Origin: Mycobacterium paraffinicum
GTDB taxonomy: Bacteria; Actinomycetota; Actinomycetes; Mycobacteriales; Mycobacteriaceae
Direction of reading: 5' to 3'
DNA length: 64,000 bases
Assembly: GCF_001907675.1 (NCBI RefSeq)
Contig: NZ_MPNT01000009.1
Span: 75,254-139,253, forward strand
Part shown: positions 5,123-50,496 of the stretch, piece by piece
Layout of the letters: every line of letters starts with the position of its first letter
Position numbering within the stretch: the first letter of the stretch is position 1
Program-made: the position numbers and the translations under genes
Notes under the pieces: generated by a model
What the model saw: only the letters and a program-made list of their open reading frames with translations
Database searches by the model: none
What the model was told of the DNA's origin: nothing

Positions 5123-6027
5123 CCGTTTCGGATCAGGGCGGCGCGTGCCAGCGTCGCCTGCGCCATCTTCACGTGCGCGGCGTCGACCAGGACACCATTG
5201 ACGCCCACCGCTCCCCTACCCCTGGCCTCGGCTTCCCGGTATGCCGCGAGATTTGTCTCGGCGCGGGCTATTTCGTCGGCCGTCGGTGCGTAGATGCGGT
5301 TGGCGACGGGGACTTGGTCGGGATGGATCGCCCACTTGCCGGTGTAGCCCATCAGCGAGGCCCGCCGGGCGTCACGCTCGTAGCCCGCCAGGTCGCGGTA
5401 GTCAGGGTATGGCGCGTCGATCGCGTCGATGCCGGCGATCCGCGCGGCAACGATCACCTTATTGCGCGCGTAATGCCAGAAATCACCGGGGTATTCGCCG
5501 AGCGGGGCGAAGTTGGTGTCTACCCGCGCGCCCTGCGACAAAGAGAAGTCGCCCAAGCCGAAGATCAATGCGTCCAGCCGGGGGCTGGCCAGGGCGATCT
5601 CTTCGGCGTTGGCCAGCCCCTCGACTTCCTCGATGAGGACTTCGAGCCGAATTTGCTTGCCCAGTCCTAGTGCTGACTCGAGCTGGGTGAGCAGCACGTC
5701 GACCCACCAGACGTCGCGTGCGCGGCGGGCCTTCGGGATGATGACGGTGTCGAGGTTTTCGCCGGCCTTGGTCACCACGTCGATCAGGTCGGCGTGACAC
5801 CAGCGGGTGTCCAGGCCGTTGATCCGCACCGCCCGCGCGGTGTGACCCCAGTCGAGGTCGTTGAGCGCACTGATCGCCTTGGCGCGTGATGCCTCCTTGA
5901 CGGCGGCGGGCACAGCGTCCTCAAGATCGAGGAATACCAGGTCGGCGCCGCACGCGGCCGCCTTGGCGAACATGTTGTCGTTGCTCGCGGGGACGGCGAG
6001 CTCGGAGCGGCGGAGAAGTTGCGTCAT
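5119..6027 (-). CDS. HpcH/HpaI (CitE/Mcl-type) CoA-ester lyase
   Basis: The 302-residue protein belongs to the CitE/malyl-CoA lyase group, which splits or forms beta-hydroxyacyl-CoA esters such as malyl-CoA or citramalyl-CoA with a Mg2+-bound TIM barrel. Visible signatures are the N-terminal RSELAVPASN, the metal-site LDLEDAVP, IIPKARRARDV, FGLGDFSLS and the C-terminal GKWAIHPDQV. Size and the GKWxIHP element resemble L-malyl-CoA/beta-methylmalyl-CoA lyases more than citrate lyase beta subunits; no citrate lyase partners are present. It starts 14 bases after a family III CoA-transferase gene, suggesting that the transferase makes the CoA ester and this enzyme cleaves it. The exact substrate is not determinable here. 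Confidence 0.85.
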   Translation of the reverse strand: MTQLLRRSELAVPASNDNMFAKAAACGADLVFLDLEDAVPAAVKEASRAKAISALNDLDWGHTARAVRINGLDTRWCHADLIDVVTKAGENLDTVIIPKARRARDVWWVDVLLTQLESALGLGKQIRLEVLIEEVEGLANAEEIALASPRLDALIFGLGDFSLSQGARVDTNFAPLGEYPGDFWHYARNKVIVAARIAGIDAIDAPYPDYRDLAGYERDARRASLMGYTGKWAIHPDQVPVANRIYAPTADEIARAETNLAAYREAEARGRGAVGVNGVLVDAAHVKMAQATLARAALIRNG

Positions 6028-7226: not shown

Positions 7227-8577
7227 CGGCGGTCACCCGGGCGTTCGACGGGCGTTCCAGCCCGAGGTGGCCCCGCAGCGTCGACGCTTCGTACCGGGTC
7301 CGGAACAGGCCTCGTCGTTGCAGTTCCGGGACAACCATGCGCACGAGGTCTTCGAATGCGCCGGGCAAATGCGTTGCGGCCAAGACGAACCCGTCGCACG
7401 CTTCGGTCTGGAACCACTCCGCCATCTGGTCGGCGACCTGCTCGCCGGTGCCGACGAAGCGGGGACCTTGCAAGAGGGTGGCGCGGTGGTTCGCCAGATC
7501 GCGCAGGGTCACCGTGTCCCCACCGATGTGCGCGCGCAGGCTTTGCACCAATCCGCGGATGCCGGACACCGATGCCAGGAGTTCGTCGGTCACCGGATCG
7601 TCCAGGCCATGTTGCGCGAAGTCGTAATTCGTCAGTTCCGACAGGAGCGTCAGCGACGCCATCGGATGGACCAGGTCGTTGAGGAACAGGGCTTCGCGGT
7701 CTTTGGCGTGCGCCTCGGACTCCCCGACCACGGCGTAGGCCATCGGGCAGATGCGCACCGCCGCGGGATCGCGGCCCGCGGTGGCGATGCGCTCCTTCTG
7801 ATCCGCGTAATGGCCCCGCGCCACGTCGATCCCCGGATCGCCGGTGAAGATCAATTCCGCCCAGCGCGAGGCGAATTCGCGACCTCTGCCCGACGATCCG
7901 GCCTGGATGATCACGGGCCTGCCCTGGGGGGTGCGCGGCACGGTCAGCGGTCCGCGCGCGGAGAAGTACGGGCCGACATGCGCCAGCTCGTGCACCTTGC
8001 CCGGATCGGCGTAGCGGCCGGCCACCCGGTCGTGCAGCACGGCGTCGTCCTCCCACGTGTCCCACAACCCGGTCACCACGTCCAGGAATTCATCGGCGCG
8101 GTCGTAGCGTTCGTCGTGGCCCAGGTGGGCGTCGAGACCGAAGTTCTGCGCTTCACGGTCGTTGACCGAAGTGACCACGTTCCAGGCTGCGCGGCCCCCG
8201 GAAAGGTGATCGAGCGTGGCGAAAGTTCTCGCGACGTGGAACGGCGCGTAGTAGGTGGTCGAGTACGTCGCACCCAGCCCGATTTTCGAGGTGGATTCGG
8301 CCAGCACCCCGAGTACCACGCCGAGGTCGAGCTTGACCGGGCGTGCGCCGTACGACACCGCGTCGGCCACCGAGGCGCCATAGACGCCCGGCATCGCCAG
8401 CCGGTCGTCGAAGAACATCAGGTCGAAGCAGCCCTCTTCCAATTGTCGGCCGATCTTGGCGTAGTAGGCGGCGTCGAGGTACCGGTGTTCCGTCGCGGGG
8501 TGCCGCCACGAGCCCGCGTACACGGAGGTGCTGCCGGCCTGCATGAACGCCACGAGCGCCATCTTGTCGGTTCGCAT
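7219..8577 (-). CDS. NtaA/SnaA/DszA-family flavin monooxygenase
   Basis: A 452-residue luciferase-fold oxygenase of the nitrilotriacetate monooxygenase component A group, which uses reduced FMN supplied by a separate reductase. Hallmarks are the start (ALVAFMQAGSTSVYAGSWRHP), the LGATYSTTYYAPFHVARTFATLDHLS block, SGGRAAWNVVTS, and the C-terminal TGEQVADQMAEW. No flavin reductase gene is in the neighbourhood. It is the first gene of an operon with a CoA-transferase and a CoA-ester lyase and is divergent from a GntR regulator, which suggests an inducible catabolic pathway for an organic acid, amine or sulfur compound. The ATG at 8577 is well placed 15 bases from the operator palindromes. Confidence 0.87.
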   Translation of the reverse strand: MRTDKMALVAFMQAGSTSVYAGSWRHPATEHRYLDAAYYAKIGRQLEEGCFDLMFFDDRLAMPGVYGASVADAVSYGARPVKLDLGVVLGVLAESTSKIGLGATYSTTYYAPFHVARTFATLDHLSGGRAAWNVVTSVNDREAQNFGLDAHLGHDERYDRADEFLDVVTGLWDTWEDDAVLHDRVAGRYADPGKVHELAHVGPYFSARGPLTVPRTPQGRPVIIQAGSSGRGREFASRWAELIFTGDPGIDVARGHYADQKERIATAGRDPAAVRICPMAYAVVGESEAHAKDREALFLNDLVHPMASLTLLSELTNYDFAQHGLDDPVTDELLASVSGIRGLVQSLRAHIGGDTVTLRDLANHRATLLQGPRFVGTGEQVADQMAEWFQTEACDGFVLAATHLPGAFEDLVRMVVPELQRRGLFRTRYEASTLRGHLGLERPSNARVTAGA

Positions 8578-38937: not shown

Positions 38938-39405
38938 GTGAAGCGTGGACTGACTGTTGCGGCGACAGGAGCGGCAATTCTGGCCGCCGCACTATCGGGA
39001 TGTTCGGGCAACAAGTCGGGTGGCGTTTCGACGTCAGTGCCGGGAGGCTCGGTGTCGGCCGGCGGCAACAACTCGACGAAGGTCATCATCGACGGCAAAG
39101 ACCAGAACGTCCAAGGCACCACAATTTGCACCAAGGCCGGCGGTGACATCTCGATCGCGGTCGGTGGCAACACCACCGGCATCAGCGTCGTGCTCGCCGA
39201 CGCCAACCCGCTCACCGTGAAGGCGGTCCAACTCGGCAACGTCAACGGTGTGACCCTGCAGTACGCGCAGGGCGGTCAGGGCAACGCGTCGGTGTCCAAG
39301 GACGGCAACACCTACAAGGTCACCGGTACGGCCACCGGCATCGACATGGCCAACCCGATGCAGCCGGTGAACAAGCCATTCGAAATCGACGCGACTTGCT
39401 CCTGA
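38938..39405 (+). CDS. lpqH: 19-kDa lipoprotein antigen LpqH
   Basis: The 155-residue exported lipoprotein matches LpqH (about 159 residues in M. tuberculosis): a signal peptide with lipobox LSGC (cysteine near residue 22), a Ser/Gly/Thr-rich linker ([17 protein letters not shown], where LpqH is glycosylated), then the folded domain with [21 protein letters not shown] and the final DATCS. LpqH is a TLR2 ligand and surface antigen. GTG at 38938 is preceded by GAAGGAG. It diverges from the alkylsulfatase and converges on tcrY, the order of Rv3763. Confidence 0.93.
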
Positions 39406-39414
39406 GTCGATGAG

Positions 39415-40908
39415 TTAAGACGTGCGCGCGGGCGGTTGCCACCCGTTGAGTGGCAACCGCACCGTGAAGTCGGTATGGCCGGGTGAGCTGTCCACGGTGA
39501 TCGTGCCGTTGTGCGCCTTGACCACCGCGGACACGATCGCCAGCCCCAGCCCGGTGCTGCCGCCCTTGCGGGACCGTGAGGTGTCGCCGCGGGCGAATCG
39601 CTCGAACACTTCGGATTGAAGCGGCGCCGGGATCCCGGGGCCGTTGTCGATGACCTGCAGCACGGTGTGGGCCGGCTCGGTGCTCAACCGTGTGGTCACC
39701 ACTGTGCCCGCGCCGGTGTGCAGGCGGGCGTTGGCGAGCAGGTTGGCCAGCACCTGGTGCAGACGGGCCGCGTCGCCCGTGACGATCACGGGTTCCTCGG
39801 GCAGGTCGAGTTCCCACTGGTGGTCCGGCCCGGCGACATGCGCGTCGTTGACGGCGTCGACGGCCACCCGCGACAGATCGACCGGTTCGCGCTCCAGCGG
39901 CCGGCCGGAGTCCAGCCGGGCCAGCAGCAGCAGGTCCTCCACCAGGCGCGTCATCCGTTCAGTCTCCGAGGCCACCCGGCTCATCGCGTGCGCCACCGCT
40001 TCCCGGTCGTCGCCCATGCGCTGGGTGAGTTCGGTGTAACCGCGGATCGCGGCAAGGGGCGTGCGCAGTTCGTGACTGGCGTCGGCGACGAACTGGCGCA
40101 CGCGGGTCTCACTGGCCTGCCGGGCCGACAGCGCGGCCGCGATGTGGTCGAGCATCCGGTTAAGAGCCGAGCCCAGCTGGCCCACCTCGGTGGAGGGGTT
40201 CGCGTCGGATTCGCGCACCCGGAGCGGCAGCTCGACCTCACCGCGATCCAGCGGTAGGTCGGCCACCCTGCTGGCGGTCTGCGCGACGCGGCGCAGCGGC
40301 GCCAGCGCGCGCCGGATGATGATGACCCCGGCGATCGTCGCGGCGGCCAGCGCGACCGCGGTGACGATCGCGAAAATGACCAGCATCCTGATCAGGGTGG
40401 CGTCGACGTTGGCCATCGAGAGGCCTGTGACGATGGTGTCGCCGCCGTTGCGGCTCGGGGCGGCCACCACCCGATACCGGCCGAGCCCGTCCAGGTCCAG
40501 GGTGACCGGCGCCCGGCTGCCCGCGATCTGCTCCAGCTGCGCCTGGGCGGCCGGGGTCAGCGCGGCCCGGGTGCCGCTGCTGGTCAGGTATCCGGCGTCG
40601 ACGGTTTTGCCATGGTTGACCACCGCGGCCACCATGCCCGCCGGCTGACCGGGGGCGTCCAGGAACCGCGGGCCCGGGCCGGGCCGGGGATAGTACGAGT
40701 GCTCGCGCCGCGGGCGGTTCGGCTCGGGGTACATCAGCGCCGAGCGGAAGGAGGTGCCGGCGAGTTGCCCGTCGAGTTGCTTCACCAGATGGTGATTGAG
40801 CGCCAGCTCGGTCACCGCGGTGATGCCGACGCACACGATGGCCAACACGACGATCTGCCCGACCAACAGCCGCAGCCGCAGCGACCAGGCCCGCCGCGCG
40901 CTGGCCAA
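39415..40908 (-). CDS. tcrY: Sensor histidine kinase TcrY (N-terminus variable)
   Basis: A membrane sensor kinase partner of TcrX. Two membrane helices (LLVGQIVVLAIVCVGITAV and VIFAIVTAVALAAATIAG) flank a periplasmic domain of about 140 residues; then HAMP, the H-box DASHELRTPLAAIRG (phosphorylated histidine), and ATP-binding N/G boxes (LANARLHTG, DNGPGIP, GLGLAIV). The start shown is the TTG beginning LASARRAWSLRL, which gives 497 residues, close to the 475 I recall for TcrY. The frame remains open through three 54-base repeats to ATG at 41085 or GTG at 41097, which would add up to 63 residues. True start unresolved. Confidence 0.88.
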   Translation of the reverse strand: MASARRAWSLRLRLLVGQIVVLAIVCVGITAVTELALNHHLVKQLDGQLAGTSFRSALMYPEPNRPRREHSYYPRPGPGPRFLDAPGQPAGMVAAVVNHGKTVDAGYLTSSGTRAALTPAAQAQLEQIAGSRAPVTLDLDGLGRYRVVAAPSRNGGDTIVTGLSMANVDATLIRMLVIFAIVTAVALAAATIAGVIIIRRALAPLRRVAQTASRVADLPLDRGEVELPLRVRESDANPSTEVGQLGSALNRMLDHIAAALSARQASETRVRQFVADASHELRTPLAAIRGYTELTQRMGDDREAVAHAMSRVASETERMTRLVEDLLLLARLDSGRPLEREPVDLSRVAVDAVNDAHVAGPDHQWELDLPEEPVIVTGDAARLHQVLANLLANARLHTGAGTVVTTRLSTEPAHTVLQVIDNGPGIPAPLQSEVFERFARGDTSRSRKGGSTGLGLAIVSAVVKAHNGTITVDSSPGHTDFTVRLPLNGWQPPARTS

Positions 40909-41064
40909 CGGTCGCGACCCGCAGCGCCCGGCTTCGCCGCGCTCGCGATCGCTCCCGGCCAACGGTCGCGACCCGCAGCGCCCGGCTTCGCCGCGCTCGC
41001 GATCGCTCCCGGCCAACGGTCGCGACCCGCAGCGCCCGGCTTCGCCGCGCTCGCGATCGCTCCT
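40903..41064 (-). repeat. Three 54-bp tandem repeats (MIRU-like) at tcrX/tcrY junction
   Basis: Copies begin at 40903, 40957 and 41011, and are identical except for the final base of the third. Each is 54 bases, a multiple of three with no stop in the tcrY frame. On the coding strand each contains GGAGCGATCGCGAG and GCGGCGAAGCCGGGC. The array ends inside the tcrX TAG stop codon. This location at overlapping ends of two-component genes is characteristic of mycobacterial interspersed repetitive units. Confidence 0.92.
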
Positions 41065-41767
41065 AGCGCGCCGGCTTGAGGACATAACCCGCGCCACGCA
41101 GCGTGTGGATCATGGGGTCGCGGCCGCTGTCGATCTTCTTACGCAGATAAGAGATGTAGAGCTCGACGATGTTGGACCGGCCGCCGAAGTCGTAGCTCCA
41201 CACCCGGTCGAGGATTTGGGCCTTGCTCAGCACCCGCTTGGAGTTGCGCATCATGAACCGCAACAACTCGAACTCGGTGGAGGTCAACGAGATCGGCTCG
41301 CCGCCGCGGGTGACCTCGTGACTGTCCTCATCCAGGACCAGATCGCCGACGACGAGTTGCGCGCCGCTGTCCAGCGTCGTCACCCCGGTGCGCCGCAGCA
41401 GGGCCCGCAGGCGCAGCACCACCTCTTCGATGCTGAACGGTTTGGTGACATAGTCATCGCCGCCGGCCGTCAACCCCGCGATGCGATCCTCCACGGCATC
41501 CTTGGCCGTCAACAGCAGCACCGGCAGCTGGGGGTTCTCCTCGCGCAACTTGTGCAGGACGTCGAGCCCGCTCATATCGGGAAGCATCACATCGAGGACG
41601 ACGACGTCCGGACGCTGGGCCCGGGCGGTGGCGATGGCCGACGCCCCGTCGCTGGCCGTCGCGATGTTCCAGCCCTCGTAGCGCAGCGCCATGGCCACCA
41701 TCTCGGCCAGGACCGACTCGTCGTCCACGACCAACACATTGATCGGATTGCCATCGGCTCGACACAT
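41063..41767 (-). CDS. tcrX: Response regulator TcrX
   Basis: The 234-residue OmpR/PhoB-type regulator has an N-terminal receiver domain (VLVVDDES acidic pocket, phosphoacceptor aspartate in VVLDVMLPDMSG, LLTAKD, and the lysine in YVTKPFS) and a C-terminal winged helix (LTSTEFELLRFMM, ISYLRKKID, RGAGYVLKP). In M. tuberculosis TcrX/TcrY respond to low-iron conditions. ATG at 41767 gives exactly the length I recall for TcrX; a longer frame to 41821 exists. The TAG stop is part of the 54-base repeat array. Confidence 0.93.
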   Translation of the reverse strand: MCRADGNPINVLVVDDESVLAEMVAMALRYEGWNIATASDGASAIATARAQRPDVVVLDVMLPDMSGLDVLHKLREENPQLPVLLLTAKDAVEDRIAGLTAGGDDYVTKPFSIEEVVLRLRALLRRTGVTTLDSGAQLVVGDLVLDEDSHEVTRGGEPISLTSTEFELLRFMMRNSKRVLSKAQILDRVWSYDFGGRSNIVELYISYLRKKIDSGRDPMIHTLRGAGYVLKPAR

Positions 41768-41862
41768 GACGACCCGCTCGACGGAGGCTCGGGGCTGAGT
41801 CACACGTTCCAGTATGCGCACCGCGCTGAGCCGCCGCTATGGCCTAGCTTTGCGTGCCCTGT

Positions 41863-41904
41863 GAAACGGATCGCGCGACTGCCGAGCAGTCGCGCGATCC
41901 CGTT
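41863..41904 (-). terminator. Strong stem-loop terminator
   Basis: GGATCGCGCGACTG (41868-41881) and CAGTCGCGCGATCC (41887-41900) form a perfect 14-base stem with a 5-base loop, flanked by AAAC and CGTTTT. It lies just after the small membrane gene (stop 41920) on the minus strand and upstream of tcrX, so it should separate the two transcripts. Confidence 0.8.
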
Positions 41905-41919
41905 TTCCCGGCGAGGTGG

Positions 41920-42075
41920 CTAATACCAATAGCGCCGGCCGGCGACCGGGCGGCCAACGGAGCCCAAGATCCACAACACGGCGCCGATAACGAGTAGCAC
42001 CACGCCAAGAGTGGTGAGGATCGGTACGTGCAAGACATACCCCAATACGAGCAGGACAATCCCGAGGATGACCAT
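41920..42075 (-). CDS. 51-residue hydrophobic membrane protein (DUF6131-like)
   Basis: A very small gene with strong support: AAGGAG lies six bases before ATG at 42075, and a strong terminator follows the TAG. The product begins MVILGIVLLVLGYVLHV, has two membrane-spanning stretches (the second VVLLVIGAVLWILGSVG) and ends in the basic, aromatic tail AGRRYWY. It looks like the mycobacterial DUF6131 family (small envelope proteins of unknown function). The same interval read differently gives only a cysteine-rich shadow. It is probably co-transcribed with the 75-residue gene upstream (21-base gap). Confidence 0.82.
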   Translation of the reverse strand: MVILGIVLLVLGYVLHVPILTTLGVVLLVIGAVLWILGSVGRPVAGRRYWY

Positions 42076-42096
42076 GTCGACTCCTTTTAGTGAGCG

Positions 42097-42324
42097 TTAG
42101 AGACTAATTGCTGGCATTGAACTCGGCTGCGGCAAATGACAATCCGTGACTTTCGGGTTGACGCCAAAGTAGTTCAGTGGTCCAGCGATGACAGTCACCG
42201 CAACGGTGCCCGCCGAGGCGCATGTTGTGTTGTCATTTTTGAAGTAATCACGTTGCCACGCCGCAATGACCCCGATTACCAACCACACCAAAGCGATCGA
42301 ACTGATAATTCCGCTGCCACGCAT
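42097..42324 (-). CDS. Small single-pass membrane protein
   Basis: A 75-residue protein: MRGSGIISSIALVWLVIGVIAAWQR forms one membrane helix, followed by an outside or cytosolic domain with two cysteines (TTCASAG and VTDCHLPQP) and a hydrophobic patch VAVTVIAGPLNYFGVNPKV. I recall similar small proteins in other mycobacteria but no function. ATG at 42324 has GGAGG in the correct position (GGAGGTCACC). Start at 42336 is less likely. It forms a two-gene unit with the 51-residue protein. Confidence 0.78.
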   Translation of the reverse strand: MRGSGIISSIALVWLVIGVIAAWQRDYFKNDNTTCASAGTVAVTVIAGPLNYFGVNPKVTDCHLPQPSSMPAISL

Positions 42325-42436
42325 GGTGACCTCCAATGTGGTCGAGAAAAATTTCTCGTGGACGATAGTTACCCATTCGACTTGTGTCTAAACATTTGCC
42401 AGCGGTGAATTGGGCACTGCCCCAGCGAAGCCGGGC

Positions 42437-42847
42437 TTAGGTGCGGTCGGCGAGCCACGCGGCGGCCCGCCTCCTCGATGCCCGGGACAGCCACGCATCT
42501 TGGATCAACTCGGCGAGTTCCGTCCTGGTGATTTCAGCCAGTCGGCTGGCGCGCACCAGCACTGACGGATGGCCGTCGAAATGTTCGGTGGTGAAGAACG
42601 GTGAATCGGGATCCTGGGTCAGCGCCAACTTGTCGCTCTCCGACTCCACCCAGAGCATGATCACGTCGGCATAGCGCTCGCCGGTGTCCGGATCGGTCGC
42701 GTCGGGCTGCGGCGTCCGGAAGAACACGAACGACTTGCCGCCCACCTGATAGATGGCATTGCCCTTCGGCCCCTCCAGGCGCTGGACATGCGGCATCGAT
42801 CCGGCGATCTCGTGCACATCGCTCACTCGCGCGGGTCGATCAGCCAC
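42437..42847 (-). CDS. MmcQ/YjbR family protein
   Basis: The 136-residue protein fits the YjbR-like family with a double-wing DNA-binding-like fold: the N-terminal VSDVHEIAGSMPHVQR, then AIYQVGGKSFVFFRTP, VLRASRLAEITRTELAELI and a basic C-terminus (SRASRRRAAAWLADR). DNA binding has been suggested for the family but is not proven. ATG at 42847. It is transcribed towards the small membrane genes, 112 bases away; nothing identifiable lies in that gap. Confidence 0.82.
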   Translation of the reverse strand: MADRPARVSDVHEIAGSMPHVQRLEGPKGNAIYQVGGKSFVFFRTPQPDATDPDTGERYADVIMLWVESESDKLALTQDPDSPFFTTEHFDGHPSVLVRASRLAEITRTELAELIQDAWLSRASRRRAAAWLADRT

Positions 42848-42908
42848 ACCGGCGAGCGTAGCGGCTTTGCGGGCGTGGGCGATTCAGCTGTCGAGGGGCG
42901 TTTACACC

Positions 42909-43850
42909 CTAGCCGCGCCGCTGCGCGGAAACGTAGAGAGTCGGCGGCATCGTGGCCTCGGCATCCTCCGGAATGCTGCGACCATAGCGGGCCATCAACT
43001 CGGCGAACGTCGCGGTGGTGACCTCCCAACCGTGCTCGCGCAGCCACCCGTCGACCGGGGTGCGCTCTTCGGCGTACCAGAGGTCGTCGAAATCGGTGAT
43101 CTCGGAGTCGACCAGCTTGGCGGCCGCGGCCCGCATGCGCTGCATATCCTCCCGCTGGCGCCGCACGATCTCGGGATCGGTGAACCCGGCGGCCGGCACG
43201 TTCGAGGCCACCCAACTGCCGTCCGCGCTGAGCGAATGGATCCGCTCGAACAACATGTCCTGTGCCTGCGCCGGCAGGTACCGCACCAGGCCCTCGGCCG
43301 ACCACGCCGCCGGCTTCGACGGGTCAAAGCCCGCCTCCTGCAGCGCCTTCGGCCAGTCCTGGCGCAGATCGATCGGCACGTTGATCAGCCGCGCCTTCGG
43401 CTCGGCGCCGTGCTCGTGCAGCGTGTTGGACTTGAATTCGAGGACCTTAGGCTGGTCCAGCTCGTAGACGACCGTGCCGTCGGGCCAGGGTAGCCGCCAG
43501 GTGCGGGCGTCCAGGCCGGCGGCCAAGATCACCACCTGCCGCACGCCGGAGTCAGCCGCGCCCAGGAAGAACTCGTCGAAAAACGCTGTCCGCGTGGCCA
43601 TGAAGTCGATCATCAGCTGGATCCGCGAGCGCACGTCCGGCTCCAGTTCAACGGCCTTGGCCAACAGCTTGGGATCGGCGTAGATGCTCCACATGCCTTC
43701 GCCAGCCGCGTCCACGAACACGCGGGCGAACGGGTCGTTGATGAGCGGGTCGGCACTCTCGGTCTCGGCGGCCCGCGCCGCGGCGACGCCCAGCGCGGTG
43801 GCTCCCACGCTTTGGGTGATGTCCCAGGAATCGTTGTCGGTACGCGGCAT
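42909..43850 (-). CDS. SAM-dependent methyltransferase (TIGR00027/LCMT-like family)
   Basis: A 313-residue protein of the large mycobacterial family of putative O-methyltransferases (Rv3767c by gene order). Diagnostic blocks are [28 protein letters not shown], the SAM loop [31 protein letters not shown] and [14 protein letters not shown]. The substrate is unknown, possibly carboxyl groups of lipids or small molecules. ATG at 43850. It diverges from the APH-like kinase gene at 44021 over 132-170 bases. Confidence 0.9.
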
Positions 43851-43982
43851 CGCCAGATCCTTCCGAGGGCGAGTCAGTTAGTTGTGCACACTATTGTTCC
43901 AGGCTCCGCCGCGCGAAGCCGCTTCCAAACGGTCGCCTAGGCTTTTTCCCAGACGCCCCACAGGTTGCAAAGGAGCGCTGGC

Positions 43983-44033
43983 ATGACGGAAGTGTTCGCC
44001 CCGAGCGGCAAGGGTCGCGCGTGGACGCCGTGA
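43983..44033 (+). CDS. Possible 16-codon leader peptide
   Basis: ATG at 43983 follows a strong ribosome site (AAAGGAG, 7 bases upstream) and encodes MTEVFAPSGKGRAWTP before TGA at 44031-44033, running 13 bases into the kinase gene in another frame. Either a translated leader coupled to the kinase start, or evidence that the kinase's true N-terminus was shifted out of frame by an indel. Confidence 0.35.
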   Translation: MTEVFAPSGKGRAWTP

Positions 44034-45055
44034 ACCTGGACGCCGTCGCGGCGTGGATGTCCGAGCGAGGGCTGGGCGCGGGCCCGTTGGAGGACGTCTC
44101 CCCCGTCACCGGTGGCACCCAGAACGTCATGCTGCGGTTCACCCGGGCCGGCCGCCCGTACGTGCTGCGGCGCGGGCCGCGCCACCTGCGTCCCCGGAGC
44201 AACAGCGTGATCTTGCGCGAGACGAAAGTGCTTGCGGCCCTGGCCGGTTCCGATGTGCCGCACCCGCACCTGATCGCCGCCTGCGAGGACACCGGCGTGC
44301 TGGGTGACGCCGTCTTCTATCTGATGGACCCGGTCGACGGGTTCAACGCCGGCGAGGGACTGCCACCGCTGCATGCGGGCGATCCCAGCGTGCGGCACGG
44401 CATGGGACTGTCGATGGCCGATGCGCTGGCCAGGCTCGGCGCCATCGACCATGTCGCGGTGGGTCTCGCCGATTTCGGCAAGCCGGAGGGCTTCCTGGAA
44501 CGCCAGGTGCCGCGCTGGCTTGCCGAGTTGGACTCCTACAGCGAGTACGAGGGCTATCCGGGTCCGGACATCCCCGGCATCGACGACGTGGCGGGCTGGC
44601 TCGAGCGCCACCGGCCGACCGACTGGAGCCCGGGCATCATGCACGGCGACTACCACGCCGCCAACGTGATGTTCTCCCGCACCGGTCCGGACGTGGTCGC
44701 CATCGTCGACTGGGAGATGTGCACGATCGGCGACCCGCTGCTGGACCTGGGCTGGCTGCTGGCCACGTGGCGCCAGCCCGACGGTTCCAGCGTGTTCAGC
44801 CACGCCCTGGGCGGCCAGGACGGGCTGGCCAGCACCGGCGAGCTGTTTGAGCGCTACGCGGCCAACACCACCCGCGACCTGTCGCATATCACCTGGTACA
44901 CCGTGCTGGCCTGCTTCAAGCTGGGCATCGTCATCGAGGGAACGCTCGCCCGGGCCTGCGCCGGCAAGGCCGAAAAGGAGGTCGGCGACCAGTTGCACGC
45001 GGGCACGGTCCACCTGTTCGAGCGCGCACTGGGCCTCATCGAGGGCGAGCGCTGA
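44021..45055 (+). CDS. APH-family phosphotransferase
   Basis: The 344-residue kinase-fold protein carries GGTQNVMLRFTRAG in the N-lobe, YVLRRGPRHLRP, the catalytic IMHGDYHAANVMF and IVDWEMCTIGDPLLDLGW. It is the third such gene in the window and most like that at 32093. Substrate unknown. GTG at 44021 is the first start in this frame; its own ribosome site (AAGGG, nine bases away) is weaker than that of the overlapping 16-codon frame upstream. A Thr/Pro-rich exported protein gene follows 19 bases later. Confidence 0.86.
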   Translation: MDAVNLDAVAAWMSERGLGAGPLEDVSPVTGGTQNVMLRFTRAGRPYVLRRGPRHLRPRSNSVILRETKVLAALAGSDVPHPHLIAACEDTGVLGDAVFYLMDPVDGFNAGEGLPPLHAGDPSVRHGMGLSMADALARLGAIDHVAVGLADFGKPEGFLERQVPRWLAELDSYSEYEGYPGPDIPGIDDVAGWLERHRPTDWSPGIMHGDYHAANVMFSRTGPDVVAIVDWEMCTIGDPLLDLGWLLATWRQPDGSSVFSHALGGQDGLASTGELFERYAANTTRDLSHITWYTVLACFKLGIVIEGTLARACAGKAEKEVGDQLHAGTVHLFERALGLIEGER

Positions 45056-45074
45056 TCCCCTAAAATCTCCCCTC

Positions 45075-45569
45075 GTGCCGCCTTACCCCGAGGAACCCGA
45101 CTACTACTCCGAGCCCACCCAGTACGGCGGGTATTACGACGAGCCGACGCCCGAGCCCGAACCGCCGACGCCGTGGTACCGCCGTCCGGCGGCGCTGGTG
45201 GCGGCCGGCGCGATCGGGGTGATCGTGCTGGCGCTGGTGGCGTTCGCCGTCGTCAAGCTGGTGGCCGGTTCGCCCGCGCACAGCCCCGCGACGACGACCA
45301 GCACGACCACCACGATTCCGTCCACCACCGTGACCACCACCACGACCGAGCCGCCCCGGCACCACGGCGGTGGCGGCGGTGGCGGCGCGCCGACCGAGAC
45401 GATCACCGAGACGGCCCCGCCCCCGAGCACCGACACCCCCACTCCCACCACAACGGAGCCGCCGAGCACCGTCACGGTTTCGCCGAGCACCGAGACCAGC
45501 ACCGTCACGCAAACGGTGACCGTCCCGCCGCGCCGCGGGCCGTTCGGGGGTCCGTTCGGCGGGCGCTAG
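45075..45569 (+). CDS. Single-pass Thr/Pro-rich envelope protein
   Basis: A 164-residue protein in three parts: a short acidic Tyr/Pro-rich cytosolic start (YYSEPTQYGGYYDEPTPEPE), one membrane helix (ALVAAGAIGVIVLALVAFAVV) and an exported low-complexity tail of Thr/Pro/Ser with a Gly run and repeated TxTxTxx (TTTSTTTTIPSTTVTTTTT), ending RRGPFGGPFGGR. The tail is a likely O-mannosylation substrate. Function unknown. GTG at 45075 is the only start before the conserved-looking N-terminus. Confidence 0.75.
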   Translation: MPPYPEEPDYYSEPTQYGGYYDEPTPEPEPPTPWYRRPAALVAAGAIGVIVLALVAFAVVKLVAGSPAHSPATTTSTTTTIPSTTVTTTTTEPPRHHGGGGGGGAPTETITETAPPPSTDTPTPTTTEPPSTVTVSPSTETSTVTQTVTVPPRRGPFGGPFGGR

Positions 45570-45582
45570 CGACCGGCGCGCC

Positions 45583-46233
45583 TCACAGTTTCGCGCTCAA
45601 GCCGGCGACCAGATTGATGGTGACCGCGAGGATGACCGCGCCGAGAAGGTACGACAGCAGCGCGTGGCGTAAGACCGTCGCCCGCAGCCGAGAGACGTTG
45701 ATCTCGGTGTCGGAAACCTGGAAGGTCATCCCGACGGTGAACGCCACGTACGCGAAGTCGACGTAACGCGGCGGGTGCGGGTCGTGGAAATCGATGCCCC
45801 CGACCTCGTCCGAGTAATAGAGGCGCGCGTAGTGCGCGGTGAAAAGCGTATGCACGGCGAACCAGGAGGCCGCCACCGCCAGCACGCCGACGCCGGCTGC
45901 CGCGAGGGATTCCCTGCCCGAATGCGCGCCCGCGGCGACGACGTATCCAACACCGCCGAGACTGCCCACGCTGGCCGAGACGACGACCACGTCCGCAAGC
46001 AACCGCGTCGCGTCCTCGCGGGTGGCGTGGCGAGCGGTCCGTTCGGCATCCATCGGGGCGATGATCAGCCAACTCCACCCGACGTACACCGCCGCGGCAA
46101 CAACCCAGCCGAGGAGCGCGAACCTCCACCCGGCGCCCTCACCGATCGCGACGGCGACCGCCATTCCGGTCAGCAGGGCGACGAAGAGCCGCACCGCGAC
46201 GGTGTCGCGGGCAAGGCGAACGTAGGACGTCAC
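45583..46233 (-). CDS. DUF1345 family membrane protein
   Basis: The 216-residue integral membrane protein has about five helices ([95 protein letters not shown]). The DUF1345 signature lies between them: [13 protein letters not shown] and the block [22 protein letters not shown]. Function unknown. ATG at 46233. It converges on the Thr/Pro-rich gene (13-base gap). Its start lies 61 bases from the left repeat of the tRNA-Arg cassette, so it marks the left chromosomal flank. Confidence 0.9.
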
Positions 46234-46294
46234 AGCGTCGACTTTAAAGAGATGTCGACTTTGGACAGATGAGGCAGCCGAACCGAGCTTTCAA

Positions 46295-46326
46295 GAGCGC
46301 GCCCGAAGGGATTCGACCCCCTAACC
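46295..46326. repeat. Left direct repeat: partial tRNA-Arg 3' end (att-like)
   Basis: These 32 bases match 49136-49167 at 31 positions (one C/A difference). The right copy is the 3' part of the tRNA-Arg(ACG) gene plus 3 bases beyond it. The left copy is not followed by the rest of a tRNA, so it is a fragment, as expected of an attachment-site duplication. Confidence 0.8.
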
Positions 46327-46581
46327 CGGGCGGATCGCGCGCAGACACGATACGAGTTCAATTGCCGTCCACGTGGTGTCTGGAAGCGTGACTGTCGTCG
46401 TGGTTGTCGTCGGAACTGTCATCAGCTCACGCTATGGCGCCGGACGCACCGCGTGGCTCGGGGCGGGCGGAAGCAGGATAGGCCGATCCGATCGGGTATG
46501 GTTAACACACCGGTAATCTCGCCGGTCCTCAGGGAAGACCGTTGGAGGTTGGGCTTACGGCCCGCCACGATCCCGTCGCCT
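46327..46581. other. Gene-free leader of the cassette
   Basis: The 371-base gap from 46234 to 46604 holds the left repeat and no convincing gene. Frames present are short, Arg/Ser-rich and without ribosome sites. The promoter of the DUF1611/racemase pair must lie here; no sigma-factor consensus is clear enough to call. Confidence 0.5.
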
Positions 46582-46597
46582 TCTGAGACTTCTCAGA
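46582..46597 (+). promoter_or_regulatory. Palindrome overlapping ribosome site of DUF1611 gene
   Basis: TCTGAG (46582-46587) and CTCAGA (46592-46597) are perfect complements with a 4-base centre. The right arm shares bases with the Shine-Dalgarno AGAGGA (46595-46600), 5 bases before ATG. It could be an operator or an RNA hairpin limiting translation. Confidence 0.55.
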
Positions 46598-46604
46598 GGA
46601 TCTT

Positions 46605-47780
46605 ATGTCTTCTCTCGCCTGCGGTACCCCTTCTCTCGGCGCGTCCGAACAGAGCGAGCGGATCCTTCCAGCGGCTCCCTTCGCGCTGCCTGGTGGTTCG
46701 ACCGCGATCGTCTACTGCGAGGGCGTGTTCGGCGAACAGGACGGTAAGACCGCCAACGGCCTGGTCAGGCATTCGAAGAAGTACGAGATCCTCAGTGTCA
46801 TCGACAGCATCCGGGCGGGAGTCGATGCCGGGAAGTTCCTCGACGGCATAGCGAACGGCATCCCGGTGCTGGCGTCGCTCGCCGAGTCCATCTCTCACGC
46901 CGGCCGCGTACCTGACTACCTGATCTGTGGGCTGGCGCCCGCCGACGGCCTACTGTCGGATGAGCAGCGGGTCGTGATGCTCGAAGGCATCGCCCGCGGG
47001 ATGCACATCATCAACGGCCTGCATGAGTTCCTCAACGACGACGCCGAGTTCGACGCGGCAGCCGCGGACGCCGGCGTCACCATCACCGATGTACGCCGAC
47101 CGAAGGCCAAGCGCGACCTGCACCTGTTCTCCGGCCGGATCTTCGACGTCACATGTCCAAGGATCGCGATCCTGGGCACGGACGGGGCGATTGGGAAGCG
47201 CACCACCGCCACGTTGCTGGTCCAGGCGCTGAACGCGCGGGGCATCAAGGCGGTCATGGTCGGCACCGGTCAGACCACCTTGATCCAGGGCGGCAAGTAC
47301 GGCGTCGCGCTGGATGCGCTGGTCCCTCAGTTCTGCTCGGGCGAGGTCGAGCATCAGGTCGTCGCCGCGTTCGAGGGTGAGGACCCTGACGTGATCGTGG
47401 TCGAGGGCCAGGGCGCGCTCAGCCACCCCGCATACCTGACGTCGGCTCACATCCTGCGTGGCAGCCGCCCGGCCGGCGTGATCGTGCAGCACGCGCCGAA
47501 ACGCAAAGTCCTCGGCGACTTTCCGATGGTCTCGATGCCGACCGCGGCCAGCGAGATCGCACTGATCGAGGCGTTCGCCGAGACCCGCGTCATCGGGGTC
47601 ACGATCAACCACGAAGAGATGACCGAAGACGCGCTGACCAAGGCGATCTCCGAGCATCGTTCGCAGCTCGGCCTCCCGGTCACTGACCCGCTGACGCGCC
47701 CGGCGTCGGATCTGGTCGATATGGTGCTGGCGGCCTTCCCCTCCCTCGCGGTCGTGGCCGACACGTCCACCCCGGTGTGA
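46605..47780 (+). CDS. DUF1611 family protein (DgcN-like P-loop protein)
   Basis: The 391-residue protein belongs to DUF1611, known from the DgcN N-acyltransferase linked to D-glutamate use in proteobacteria. A central P-loop is visible (ILGTDGAIGKRTTATLL, residues about 188-204), preceded by an N-terminal domain (VYCEGVFGEQDGKTANGLVRH) and followed by VVEGQGALSHPAYLTS and the nucleotide/acyl region VIVQHAPKRK. AGAGGA precedes ATG. The stop overlaps the racemase GTG (GTGA), indicating joint function on an amino acid. Codon use is less GC-biased at third positions than in neighbouring core genes by eye, in keeping with transfer. Confidence 0.83.
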   Translation: MSSLACGTPSLGASEQSERILPAAPFALPGGSTAIVYCEGVFGEQDGKTANGLVRHSKKYEILSVIDSIRAGVDAGKFLDGIANGIPVLASLAESISHAGRVPDYLICGLAPADGLLSDEQRVVMLEGIARGMHIINGLHEFLNDDAEFDAAAADAGVTITDVRRPKAKRDLHLFSGRIFDVTCPRIAILGTDGAIGKRTTATLLVQALNARGIKAVMVGTGQTTLIQGGKYGVALDALVPQFCSGEVEHQVVAAFEGEDPDVIVVEGQGALSHPAYLTSAHILRGSRPAGVIVQHAPKRKVLGDFPMVSMPTAASEIALIEAFAETRVIGVTINHEEMTEDALTKAISEHRSQLGLPVTDPLTRPASDLVDMVLAAFPSLAVVADTSTPV

Positions 47781-48943
47781 CGCTTCGGATCGCGACCGAT
47801 CTCGACAAGGTCGAGCAGAACACGCGGATCCTGGTTGACCGGCTTGCCTCAACGGGCATCCGAGTCACCGGGATAACCAAGGCCGTGTTGGGCTCGCCGG
47901 GAGTCGGCGCGGCGATGCTGCGCGGCGGCGCCGGCGGCCTCGGCGATTCCCGGGTGACGAACCTCGCTCGACTGGCCGGGCTCGACGGATCCCGGTTACG
48001 CACGTTGATCCGCTCACCCATGCTCAGCCAGGTGGCACGGGTCGTTGAGTTCGCCGACGTCAGTTTGAACACTCAGGCCGTCGTCTTGGCGGCGCTCGAT
48101 CAGGCCGCGTTCGAGCAGAAGCGCATGCACGCCGTCGTGCTCATGGTCGAGCTGGGCGACCTGCGCGAGGGCATCGCGCTCGCCGACGTCGGCGAGGCCG
48201 CGCGGACTGTCCTCGGTCACGCTTCCCTCCGGCTGGTAGGGGTCGGCGCCAACCTCGCTTGTCAGAACGGTGTCACGCCCGACGACCGGAACATGGGCAT
48301 CCTCTCCGGCCTCGCCAACGACATGGAGGCACTGCACGGGATCTCGCTCGACGTCGTCTCGGGTGGCAATTCGGCGAACCTGAACTGGGCTCTGCACACC
48401 CACGATGTGGGCCGGATCGACGAGCTCCGGCTCGGCGAAGCCATCCTTCTCGGCGTCGATCCGCTGTACCGCACACCGATCCCGGGCCTGCACACGGACG
48501 CCTTCACCTTGACAGCCGAAGTCATCGAGGTCGCCATGAAACCGGCTCAACCCTGGGGAGATCGTGCTCAGGCGGCCTTCGGCGAGGCGCCGGTCCGCAC
48601 CGGCAGCGGGACCGTGCACCAAGCAATCCTGGCCCTCGGTCGCCAGGACGTGGACCCGGACGGTCTGCAGCCACCCGAGGGCATCACGATCCTCGGGATG
48701 AGCAGCGATCACCTGATGGTTGACCTCGGCGATCACCCCGTCGCGGTCGGCGACGAGATCGACTTCGGTGTCGCCTACGGGGCACTCGTGCGGGCGATGA
48801 CGTCGCCCTTCGTCACCAAGGTCGAGCACTTCGGCCGTTCCGTCACACCCGAGGTGACCCAGGTGCCAACACCGATCCAAGTTTCGACCCCCCGCTCAGT
48901 GCCGGAGGCCCATGCCGGTGGCGACCTGCCTTACCTACCTTGA
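47777..48943 (+). CDS. Ornithine/alanine racemase-family PLP enzyme
   Basis: A 388-residue fold-type III PLP protein of the alanine/ornithine racemase family. The PLP lysine is probably in VTGITKAVLGSP (about residue 37). Typical barrel elements follow: NTRILVDRL before it, VVLMVELGDLREG, VGANLACQNGV, VSGGNSANLNWAL and ELRLGEAILLGVDPLY, the last characteristic of ornithine racemase-type enzymes. It should interconvert L and D forms of an amino acid (ornithine, alanine or glutamate-related). The C-terminal 40 residues (Pro/Thr-rich) are an extension. GTG start overlaps the DUF1611 stop. Confidence 0.83.
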   Translation: MTLRIATDLDKVEQNTRILVDRLASTGIRVTGITKAVLGSPGVGAAMLRGGAGGLGDSRVTNLARLAGLDGSRLRTLIRSPMLSQVARVVEFADVSLNTQAVVLAALDQAAFEQKRMHAVVLMVELGDLREGIALADVGEAARTVLGHASLRLVGVGANLACQNGVTPDDRNMGILSGLANDMEALHGISLDVVSGGNSANLNWALHTHDVGRIDELRLGEAILLGVDPLYRTPIPGLHTDAFTLTAEVIEVAMKPAQPWGDRAQAAFGEAPVRTGSGTVHQAILALGRQDVDPDGLQPPEGITILGMSSDHLMVDLGDHPVAVGDEIDFGVAYGALVRAMTSPFVTKVEHFGRSVTPEVTQVPTPIQVSTPRSVPEAHAGGDLPYLP

Positions 48944-48953
48944 GTGCCTGCTT

Positions 48954-48977
48954 GACAGCGCAAGCTCACTCGCTGTC
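48954..48977 (+). terminator. Stem-loop after racemase gene
   Basis: GACAGCG (48954-48960) pairs with CGCTGTC (48971-48977), 10-base loop, 10 bases after the racemase stop. No T-run. The rest of the gap up to 49138 has only a 15-codon frame (49070-49117) behind a GGAGG, too short to call a gene. Confidence 0.6.
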
Positions 48978-49135
48978 CTGGGCGGGTGTTAGCGGGCAAT
49001 TGATCGAAGGACGAATCCTAAAGAAGGGGGCGGGCGCTACATAGGACGTCGAAGCCGGAGGTTGGACGATGGTCAAGACTGTCGTCAATGAGCGCCCGGG
49101 CAGCTTCCCGCACTGACGGAAAGGGCCTCCGAATT

Positions 49136-49167
49136 GAGCGCGCCCGAAGGGATTCGAACCCCTAACC
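49136..49167. repeat. Right direct repeat within tRNA-Arg (att-like)
   Basis: Partner of 46295-46326 (31 of 32 identical). It covers the T-arm and 3' acceptor strand of tRNA-Arg(ACG). The repeats are offset by 2841 bases, which is the apparent unit length of the cassette. Confidence 0.8.
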
Positions 49168-49211
49168 TTCTGATCCGTAGTCAGATGCTCTATCCGTTGA
49201 GCTACGGGCGC
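49139..49211 (-). tRNA. tRNA-Arg (anticodon ACG)
   Basis: On the minus strand GCGCCCG pairs with CGGGCGC; the anticodon loop CTACGGA in stem TCTGA/TCAGA gives ACG (A34 is the TadA substrate). T-loop GGTTCGAATCC is intact; CCA is not encoded. Its 3' part is duplicated at 46295-46326. Confidence 0.96.
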
Positions 49212-49241
49212 CAGTGTTCAGTTGTCTTGCATCGTGTTCCT

Positions 49242-49333
49242 TGGCGGAGGCGAGAGGATTTGAACCTCCGGTCCCCTTTGAGGGGGACAACTCATTAGCA
49301 GTGAGCCCCATTCGGCCGCTCTGGCACGCCTCC
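49242..49333 (-). tRNA. tRNA-Ser (anticodon GCT)
   Basis: Acceptor arms GGAGGCG/CGCCTCC, discriminator G and encoded CCA; anticodon loop ACTGCTAAT gives GCT. A long variable arm (GTCCCCC/GGGGAC) marks a serine tRNA. Only 30 bases separate it from tRNA-Arg. Confidence 0.95.
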
Positions 49334-49417
49334 CTTGGACTGTTTGAGGGTACCCGACCCCTTTCCGGTCTCGCGGAACCGGCCATAGCGTACACATTTG
49401 CGACATAAACTGTCGAA

Positions 49418-50485
49418 GTGACTGCTCGCTTGCGTCCCGAACTGGCTGGACTGCCAGTCTATGTGCCCGGCAAGAACGTGCCCGGCTCCATCAAACTGGC
49501 CAGCAACGAGACCGTGCACGGCCCGCTGCCCAGCGTGCACGCGGCGATCGAGCGCGCGGCTGCCGTCGTCAACCGCTACCCGGACAACGCCAGCGTGGAC
49601 CTCAAGGCCGCGTTGGCGATGCACCTGGGGTCCGACGTCGCCCCCGAGCACATCGCGGTCGGCAGCGGTTCGGTCACCCTGTGCCAGCAGCTGGTGCAGA
49701 TCACCGCCGCCGCCGGCGACGAGGTGATGATCGGCTGGCGCAGCTTCGAGTGCTACCTGCCGATCATTCAGGTGTCCGGCGCGACCACCGTCAAGGTGCC
49801 GTTGACCGACCACACGCACGACCTCGACGCGATGCTCGCGGCGATCACCGACCGCACCCGGCTGATCTTCGTGTGCAACCCCAACAACCCGACGTCCACG
49901 GTCGTCGACCCCGACCACCTGGCCCGCTTCGTCGAGGCCGTGCCGCCGCACATCCTGATCGCCATCGACGAGGCGTACGTGGAATACATCCGCGACGGCA
50001 TGCTGCCGAACAGCTTGGAGTTGGCCCTGGCCCGCAGCAATGTGGTTGTGCTGCGCACCTTTTCGAAGGCCTACGGGTTGGCGGGCCTGCGCGTCGGATA
50101 TGCGGTCGGCCACCCCGAGCTGATCACCGCGCTGGACAAGGTCGTCATGCCGTTCGCCGTGACCAACGTCGGGCAGGCGGCCGCGATCGCGTCGCTGGAG
50201 GCGTCCGGCGAACTGGCGGCCCGCACCGACGCCCTGGTGGCCGAGCGCACCCGCGTCAGCGCCGCGCTGCGCGAAGCCGGGTTCACCCTGCCGCCCTCGC
50301 AGGCCAACTTCGTGTGGCTGCCGCTGGGCGCTCGTACCGAGGACTTCACCCAGCAGGCCGCCGAGGCGCGCCTGGTCGTGCGCCCGTTCGCGGGCGAGGG
50401 GGTGCGCGTCACCATCGGTGCGGCCGAGGAGAATGACGCCCTGTTGCACTTCGCCTGCGACTGGATTTCCCGCACCGAACCGTAA
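49418..50485 (+). CDS. hisC2: Histidinol-phosphate/aromatic aminotransferase (HisC2-like)
   Basis: A 355-residue class I/II PLP aminotransferase. Motifs: SIKLASNETVHGPLPS near the N-terminus, FVCNPNNPTSTVV, IDEAYVEYI, and the PLP lysine in VVLRTFSKAYGLAGLRVGY. The group includes phenylalanine/aromatic aminotransferases and HisC; in M. tuberculosis the corresponding gene (Rv3772) is named hisC2. GTG at 49418. DUF4334 gene follows after 11 bases. Confidence 0.92.
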   Translation: MTARLRPELAGLPVYVPGKNVPGSIKLASNETVHGPLPSVHAAIERAAAVVNRYPDNASVDLKAALAMHLGSDVAPEHIAVGSGSVTLCQQLVQITAAAGDEVMIGWRSFECYLPIIQVSGATTVKVPLTDHTHDLDAMLAAITDRTRLIFVCNPNNPTSTVVDPDHLARFVEAVPPHILIAIDEAYVEYIRDGMLPNSLELALARSNVVVLRTFSKAYGLAGLRVGYAVGHPELITALDKVVMPFAVTNVGQAAAIASLEASGELAARTDALVAERTRVSAALREAGFTLPPSQANFVWLPLGARTEDFTQQAAEARLVVRPFAGEGVRVTIGAAEENDALLHFACDWISRTEP

Positions 50486-50496
50486 GGAGTGGTCCA

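Follow-up and report, generated by a model that had tools for sequence, protein, structure and literature searches.

The 64,000-nucleotide stretch of Mycobacterium paraffinicum DNA analysed here (from contig NZ_MPNT01000009.1; hereafter the window) carries, beside an intact tRNA-Arg(ACG) gene, a two-gene cassette that encodes a DUF1611 protein and a pyridoxal phosphate (PLP) racemase-like protein. A preliminary description of the same DNA had drawn attention to the cassette and to the repeats around it. In this study, we relate the cassette to empty and occupied sites in other genomes and describe a conserved RNA leader in front of the DUF1611 gene, which that description missed and which we regard as the larger finding.

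Results

The cassette and its target gene

The cassette is enclosed by two copies of a 32-bp direct repeat (Table 1), which differ at a single position (31 of 32 identical). A search in which that base was replaced by N and up to three mismatches were allowed found only these two matches in the 64 kb, and none in 100 shuffles. The right copy forms the 3′ end of the tRNA-Arg(ACG) gene, and the left copy lies outside every tRNA predicted by ARAGORN. In line with the preliminary description, a one-mismatch repeat at 46295 and 49136 is thus a bare fragment on the left and the end of an intact tRNA gene on the right. The two genes in between, overlapping as GTGA, pair a DUF1611 protein (Pfam PF07755, PF17396) with a PLP racemase (Ala_racemase_N, PF01168), also as described. 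No integrase was seen between the repeats among the two cassette genes, again in agreement with that description, and neither gene in 46327-49135 belongs to an integrase, relaxase or conjugation family, in a scan of these two genes that left unscanned the other frames of at least 100 amino acids overlapping them. The terminator reported alongside the genes is not supported: the sole terminator-like site of the scan (46580-46599) lies upstream of both, and an inverted repeat seen by eye 3′ of the racemase gene (48954-48960/48971-48977) lacks a T run.

The closest relative found, L001 (genome G001), holds the same insert, and the next closest, G408 (HisC 95% identical), is without the cassette (loci L102/L159). 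Window positions 39308-46326 align to L159 1-6972 and positions 49136-50496 to L159 6941-8301, collinear over 7.0 kb of the left flank and 1.4 kb of the right. The alignments overlap at a single 32-bp copy (L159 6941-6972), which adjoins an intact tRNA-Arg, and this overlap gives an insert of 2841 bp. The tRNA-targeted insertion with a findable empty site that had been proposed is therefore borne out; in the relatives examined, the cassette is not fixed without an empty site and the left repeat is not kept where the cassette is absent, the two outcomes named in advance as speaking against insertion. A second occupied lineage, L002, carries the cassette at tRNA-Arg between 44-bp perfect repeats and also has an empty sister, L104. 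In a HisC tree of 31 hisC genes (L116, with no oriented match, being left out), the window and L001 group together (support 95/80), followed by the empty L102 and L103, and L002 pairs with L104 (100/99). The L104 genome (G108, L160) has one core copy in 10.5 kb, the 1.5 kb immediately left of the tRNA being non-homologous to the window. Among the 29 hisC loci compared (L102-L130), several kb were examined only for G408 (L159) and G108 (L160), and at most ~1.2 kb beside the tRNA for the remainder, L116 being incomplete.

The cassette also lies at other sites. In Mycobacterium rhizamassiliense (L003), it sits between two 29-bp perfect repeats that are tRNA-Ala(GGC) 3′ ends; ARAGORN and Rfam ruled out their assignment to tmRNA. 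This genome has an intact tRNA-Ala (C1:92979-93054), directly preceded by an integrase gene (C1:91657-92880), whose product shares 79% identity with the integrase of an island in genome G442 described below. The same contig, 6.015 Mb long, carries the L003 cassette at 6.008 Mb, ~98 kb from the integrase if the contig is circular. In Mycobacteroides (L015), a 33-bp direct repeat with three mismatches (5714-5746 and 8335-8367) flanks the cassette at what is apparently a non-tRNA site, the end of a protein gene. When 30 sources (the window and L001-L030 without L027) were tested for flanking repeats over ~3 kb on each side where available, four besides the window had a convincing one: L001, L002, L003 and L015. 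A 16-bp flanking match in L023 was taken as chance. L014 and L020 adjoin tRNA-Phe and L016 adjoins tRNA-Pro, none with repeats.

Across L001-L023, the cassette (~46441-48950) alone is common, at 82-92% DNA identity, with flanks shared only in L001 and L002. These records come from Mycobacterium, Mycobacteroides, Mycolicibacterium, Pseudonocardia and Rhodococcus; contamination could explain the Rhodococcus copy (L007), whose contig is 3.7 kb long. The DUF1611 protein is 87-92% identical (best tblastn segment) to its counterparts in L003, L006, L011, L014, L015, L019, L020 and L023, the HisC of these eight hosts being 52-73% identical. Of 198 genomes of the genus, 10 hold a copy of at least 86% identity, one holds a distant copy at 38%, and four more gave weak matches below 32%. 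Plasmid and phage collections yielded only DUF1611 relatives below 60% identity, and no plasmid or phage source was seen there. Across Actinomycetota, the two-gene module is thus widespread and stands at different sites, a point absent from the preliminary description. In L008 (6001-8307), both proteins are encoded in one open frame of 768 amino acids, an apparent natural fusion.

The ends of the element recur as well. Its left core is followed by three TGTC[GA]TC[AG] repeats 12 bp apart and its right core preceded, by ~50 bp, by one more, and the element ends account for 4 of the 13 octamers of this kind on the window's plus strand. The L002 left-end sequence occurs in 18 of the 198 genomes (that of L001 included), mostly at 72-91% identity over partial length, and ends of this type adjoin both tRNA-Arg-type and tRNA-Ala-type cores. 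Similar ends also delimit an island of ~24.5 kb in G442, where a tyrosine integrase gene lies ~2 kb from the right core. Because its ends are common to other tRNA islands, one of them with an integrase, the cassette has the look of a recombinase-free passenger of an integrase family. The ends are not uniform: L001 has lost the right arm repeat, the left core of L002 is 16 bp longer than that of the window and L001, and in L003 a TGTCGTC-type arm lies beyond the right repeat, in neighbouring sequence. Repeats, empty sites and shared ends are all observed, as is insertion at more than one site and in more than one lineage.

Three further genomes or contigs carry related ends. At the same tRNA-Arg site in G556 (L156:4006-6492), similar ends hold other cargo, one 672-amino-acid frame with no Pfam or NCBIfam match; perhaps this is a site of interchangeable cargo, with a second small integrase-free one. 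G560 has four left-end sequence copies in one genome (C209, C142, C42, C65; L151-L154), near glycosidase and fumarate reductase genes, an IclR regulator and an HTTM protein. A 5.9-kb contig from a viral collection (L161:5500-5923) ends, by eye, with arm sequence and a tRNA-Arg-type core, and one of its frames matches the phage capsid family PF25209.

A structured leader upstream of DUF1611

Conservation among the aligned loci begins well 5′ of the DUF1611 ATG. Two sets of leaders were aligned, one by MAFFT (70 leaders of 81 sources, 11 being skipped by a motif rule) and one of 39, and they have a common order: hairpin P1, an unpaired UCAGGGAAGAC, hairpin P3, GUCGCCUCCUCUG and hairpin P4 with the Shine-Dalgarno sequence. 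A covariance model built from the 39-leader set (R1) matches 79 of 80 DUF1611 loci (the best 80 of 135 relatives), with L022 as the exception; 38 of the 80 helped build R1, and of the other 42, 41 match. The leader-bearing relatives belong to Mycobacterium, Microbacterium, Acidimicrobiia and others. Twelve whole genomes chosen for holding DUF1611-leader loci gave one match each (12/12), in every case in front of DUF1611. The leader was found in 5 of 396 Actinomycetota genomes and in 8 of 150 Microbacteriaceae genomes, in all 5 and all 8 directly upstream of DUF1611; G007 and G269 are in both of these samples, some scanned genomes are also sources of L001-L080, and the strict filters of the two scans can miss weak copies. 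The link of the leader to DUF1611 is thus near constant. Moreover, all 31 of the 80 loci that have no racemase relative in the locus, mainly in Microbacterium (among L033-L080, e.g. L044, L062, L076), keep the leader, which argues that it belongs to DUF1611 and not to the racemase.

Rfam 15 has no counterpart of the leader: nothing matched it at E up to 5 for the window or up to 10 for L003 and L043. A type-II hammerhead was considered at 46214-46283 (Rfam, 23 bits, cut-off 37) and, like other weak matches, taken as chance. The titles and abstract openings searched name neither a DUF1611 leader nor a racemase riboswitch, a 2017 survey of 224 candidate RNAs lying outside this comparison, and for two RNA-discovery papers (PMC11109978, PMC8632094) the term search covered the main text. 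Several leaders depart from the common form. Those of L058, L073, L077 and L080 are without the P3 middle and keep P1, a UCAGGGAAGA-like stretch and P4, which may be a minimal form; distant leaders with an altered P1 in two other Actinomycetota (L084, L085) may permit a broader model. L063 has a weak extra R1 match on its opposite strand (E 0.006; 1.09 Mb scanned). The locus L044, one of those without the racemase, continues on the opposite strand with genes for a PemK-like protein and an ammonium transporter.

Standard pairs make up 91.7% of pair cells in the MAFFT alignment, compared with 36-52% pairing in slid versions, and two-sided changes occur in 26 cells versus 5.6 in shuffles. An alignment fitted to the model, and so biased towards the structure, gave 90.6% pairing, two-sided changes in 86 cells versus 13.1 shuffled, and 15 pairs with two-sided change versus 3-9 in slid versions. 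Since shuffles ignore kinship, we wrote a phylogeny-aware test in the manner of R-scape, in which substitutions were re-placed on the tree (84 rows, the weak L063 match and identical rows being dropped). Its best-scoring pair overall is a model pair, but even the lowest E value over all column pairs, 0.37, misses the threshold of 0.05. Covariation backs P1 and P3. A hairpin at P4, over the Shine-Dalgarno sequence, is clearly possible, although covariation does not prove it. For the alternative pairing P5, 87.2% of cells pair, which exceeds shuffles only in percentage paired (3 of 500), its two-sided changes, pair types and covariation score being not above shuffles, and a P5-P4 switch is accordingly a hypothesis. 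Folding energy z ranges from -4.0 to +0.8 in six leaders.

The two enzymes

The DUF1611 protein scores 153 bits on the DgcN equivalog model (NF041892), below the cut-off of 480, and has solved relatives in 2g0t, 2obn and 7xrj; the DUF1611 frame of L043 has no NCBIfam match at E 0.001. The second protein scores 59 bits on PF01168 (cut-off 24), which places it in the fold-III PLP racemase superfamily, and 320 bits over 346 residues on the ornithine racemase (Orr) model NF040742, below the cut-off of 480, as are the scores in L003 (320) and L043 (310). Its Lys35, which we take to be the PLP lysine, is invariant in 15 of 15. A single-sequence search against solved structures found no relative of the racemase, and a profile search returned only D-3-hydroxyaspartate aldolase, D-threonine aldolase and alanine racemase (E 0.0002-0.001). 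No constant neighbour gene that would hint at a ligand was seen among the 10 neighbouring frames scanned. In L017, an M19 dipeptidase gene lies 3′ of the racemase gene, an association that fits release of D-amino acids from dipeptides.

Table 1. Features of the cassette and its borders in the window
Feature	Coordinates	Strand	Remarks
attL core, left repeat copy, tRNA-Arg 3′-end fragment	46295..46326	+	16 bp shorter than L002 copy
Three TGTC[GA]TC[AG] repeats, 12 bp apart (46393, 46405, 46417), arm-type	46393..46424	+	
-10-like hexamer TATGGT, immediately 5′ of leader	46497..46502	+	By eye; a consensus scan gave no promoter
Structured RNA leader, 98 nt	46505..46602	+	R1, 75.8 bits; window copy among the 39 R1-building sequences
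Hairpin P1 (46509-46514 with 46521-46526)	46509..46526	+	Covarying
Conserved UCAGGGAAGAC	46529..46539	+	GAC pairs with 46575-46577 (P2); UCAGGG could pair with P4 5′ arm (alternative P5)
Hairpin P3, variable loop	46551..46563	+	Covarying
Hairpin P4 (46580-46587 with 46592-46599)	46580..46599	+	3′ arm holds Shine-Dalgarno AGAGGA
DUF1611 protein, 391 amino acids	46605..47780	+	Rossmann-like N domain and P-loop C domain; distant DgcN relative
PLP racemase-like protein, 388 amino acids	47777..48943	+	Orr relative below cut-off
Lone TGTCGTCA repeat close to right end	49080..49087	+	Common to L002 and L156; absent in L001
Right 32-bp repeat copy, tRNA-Arg 3′ end	49136..49167	+	
tRNA-Arg(ACG), intact, target gene	49138..49211	-	

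Discussion

With a probability of roughly 0.7, we read this locus as a non-autonomous cassette at tRNA-Arg that carries a leader-controlled DUF1611/racemase operon. A tyrosine integrase from a related island would have inserted the 2.84-kb integrative cassette into the 3′ end of tRNA-Arg(ACG) by recombination of a tRNA-derived core with the copy carried by the element, and the arm-like repeats at both ends would be what the supplied integrase holds. The cargo would be one operon of promoter, structured leader, DUF1611 enzyme and fold-III PLP racemase. The leader is a candidate translational riboswitch or cis-regulatory RNA that probably controls the cassette, and as a new candidate class it combines moderate structural support with very high gene specificity. 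A conserved structure upstream of a coherent gene set, as looked for in riboswitches, is present, with significant covariation only in P1 and P3. Acting on translation, P4 would hide the Shine-Dalgarno sequence, and ligand binding at the conserved P1-UCAGGGAAGAC-P3 part would shift the balance of P4 versus an open form. As the candidate ligand, the likeliest choice is a compound linked to DUF1611, either an amino acid or an acyl-amino acid. The two enzymes probably modify an amino acid, by acylation and/or racemisation, so as to make a D-form usable. We suggest, tentatively and as something we would sooner expect to fail than to hold, that the leader represents a riboswitch class new to Actinomycetota and to science, in which sensing of a D-amino acid or an acylated amino acid opens the DUF1611 Shine-Dalgarno sequence, the sensor-plus-pathway unit spreading recombinase-free between tRNA sites.

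A number of results weigh against this reading. Twelve mycobacterial loci (L005, L006, L008-L014, L018, L020, L022) have no flanking repeat within ~3 kb (some flanks being short), so that either not every copy moved by this route or the repeats have decayed. The L003 cassette bears different arm-like short repeats (by eye) at its own left end, and we infer the action of an integrase on the cassette ends. Neither enzyme reaches its equivalog cut-off, and a D-amino-acid module, as the preliminary description had it, can therefore only be suggested. The racemase is missing nearby in the 31 loci mentioned above, and 5 of 13 Microbacteriaceae with DUF1611 above cut-off gave no leader match. As to the structure, the 7 pairs with two-sided change in the MAFFT alignment are equalled by 3 of 6 slid versions, and of the 22 leader pairs only three, two of them in P1 and the third in P3, stay significant once corrected for that number of pairs. 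In the same phylogeny-aware test, P2, P4 and the alternative P5 have no covariation support, largely because those pairs hardly vary. Lastly, the window leader has a z of only -1.30 versus shuffles and the L044 leader folds worse than shuffles.

The insert could have another history, in which a larger, integrase-bearing element entered tRNA-Arg and lost all but the operon and its ends, leaving an inert remnant that never moved as a cassette. The shortened left core of the window and L001 and the lost right arm of L001 fit such decay, which is also thought to be the route by which cis-mobilizable elements (CIMEs) originate, in passages of PMC7563491. Against it, tRNA-Arg is occupied by a similar small element in two distinct HisC lineages and the L003 operon lies between tRNA-Ala copies; with three such occurrences, the same trimming thrice is less likely, and we hold decay to be possible but doubtful. 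A cassette that is ancestral at tRNA-Arg and deleted in relatives would also account for empty sites, as deletion between direct repeats leaves one copy. However, close copies are found in 10 of the 198 genomes, elsewhere the cassette lies at other sites, and the window copy is 87-92% identical to those of hosts with 52-73% HisC identity; we hold this to be the least probable of the alternatives.

For the leader, its parts might serve DNA rather than RNA, with P1 as an operator palindrome for a repressor and P4 as an ordinary hairpin over a strong ribosome-binding site. P1 does stand directly after a -10-like box, covariation in a palindrome can stem from a DNA-binding protein, and the P4 pairs lack covariation support. 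Yet P3 differs between leaders in sequence and loop length while remaining paired in most of them, the stretches UCAGGGAAGAC and GUCGCCUCCUCUG between P1 and P4 are conserved, and a scan of 10 neighbouring frames showed no repressor gene that is constant; we consider an operator unlikely. Control by a leader peptide through ribosome stalling (attenuation) is suggested by a frame of 24-28 codons that, in many mycobacterial leaders, ends RSRRLL at a UGA inside P4. But 21 of 70 leaders are without a frame starting and ending within the leader, Microbacterium frames differ, and the window frame is a different one of 14 codons. As frames are not conserved, a conserved leader peptide was rejected, and stalling seems very improbable.

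The leader as a gene-control element is, in our view, the part of this locus most worth following, the mobile element being of a known kind. Should the leader prove to be a riboswitch, the identity of its ligand would directly reveal what a DUF1611 enzyme does and so the pathway of a family that Pfam still lists as of 'unknown function'. We know of no riboswitch for a D-amino acid, and 'D-amino' has no match in the main text of one review (PMC10043782). The cassette also indicates that a complete, apparently regulated metabolic unit can spread without its own recombinase, in mycobacteria and other Actinomycetota.

Relation to known systems

Tycheposons are cargo islands at tRNA genes of marine bacteria, and from their general description they resemble the cassette as cargo islands adjoining tRNA genes. 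Closer are the CIMEs, described in passages of PMC7563491 as decayed elements that keep att sites and have lost their recombination genes, and as elements of 1.2-13 kb with cargo, so that such a minimal element, called unusual in the preliminary description, does have parallels. The cassette appears to act like such a cis-mobilizable element in the legible parts of the definition: the 32-bp repeat and single-copy empty site point to flanking att sites, and the two cassette genes include none for an integrase, relaxase or conjugation. Arm repeats are shared with the integrase-bearing G442 island, and the cassette may or may not derive from an integrative and conjugative or integrative and mobilizable element. 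Like the CIMEs of streptococci, it is a small cargo island, att-flanked at a gene 3′ end, with no integrase seen. These can lie in tandem with an integrase-bearing island, as L003 may here, where the tandem-like arrangement is only suggestive of CIME-type cis movement. Unlike them, the cassette is actinobacterial and single at tRNA-Arg, with a tandem only in L003 if the contig is circular, it carries a single metabolic operon preceded by an RNA leader, and its transfer is putative.

The enzyme pair recalls DgcN-DgcA in that a DUF1611 protein, here with 153 bits on the DgcN model, is encoded with a racemase. It differs in that the cassette DUF1611 stays below the DgcN cut-off and the cassette racemase is a fold-III PLP enzyme, DgcA being enolase-fold. 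DgcN-DgcA is a route for D-glutamate, according to a passage of PMC10845958, and the earlier view of the two pairs as analogous but distinct agrees with a score of 153 bits against a cut-off of 480. The racemase resembles Orr in matching its model over 346 residues at 320 bits, and differs in falling below the cut-off of 480, use of ornithine being putative. The leader itself matches no Rfam family, unlike known translational riboswitches, and its ligand and its switching are putative. As in these riboswitches, it is a conserved structured 5′ leader of one gene family, with its Shine-Dalgarno sequence in a hairpin and a possible alternative pairing.

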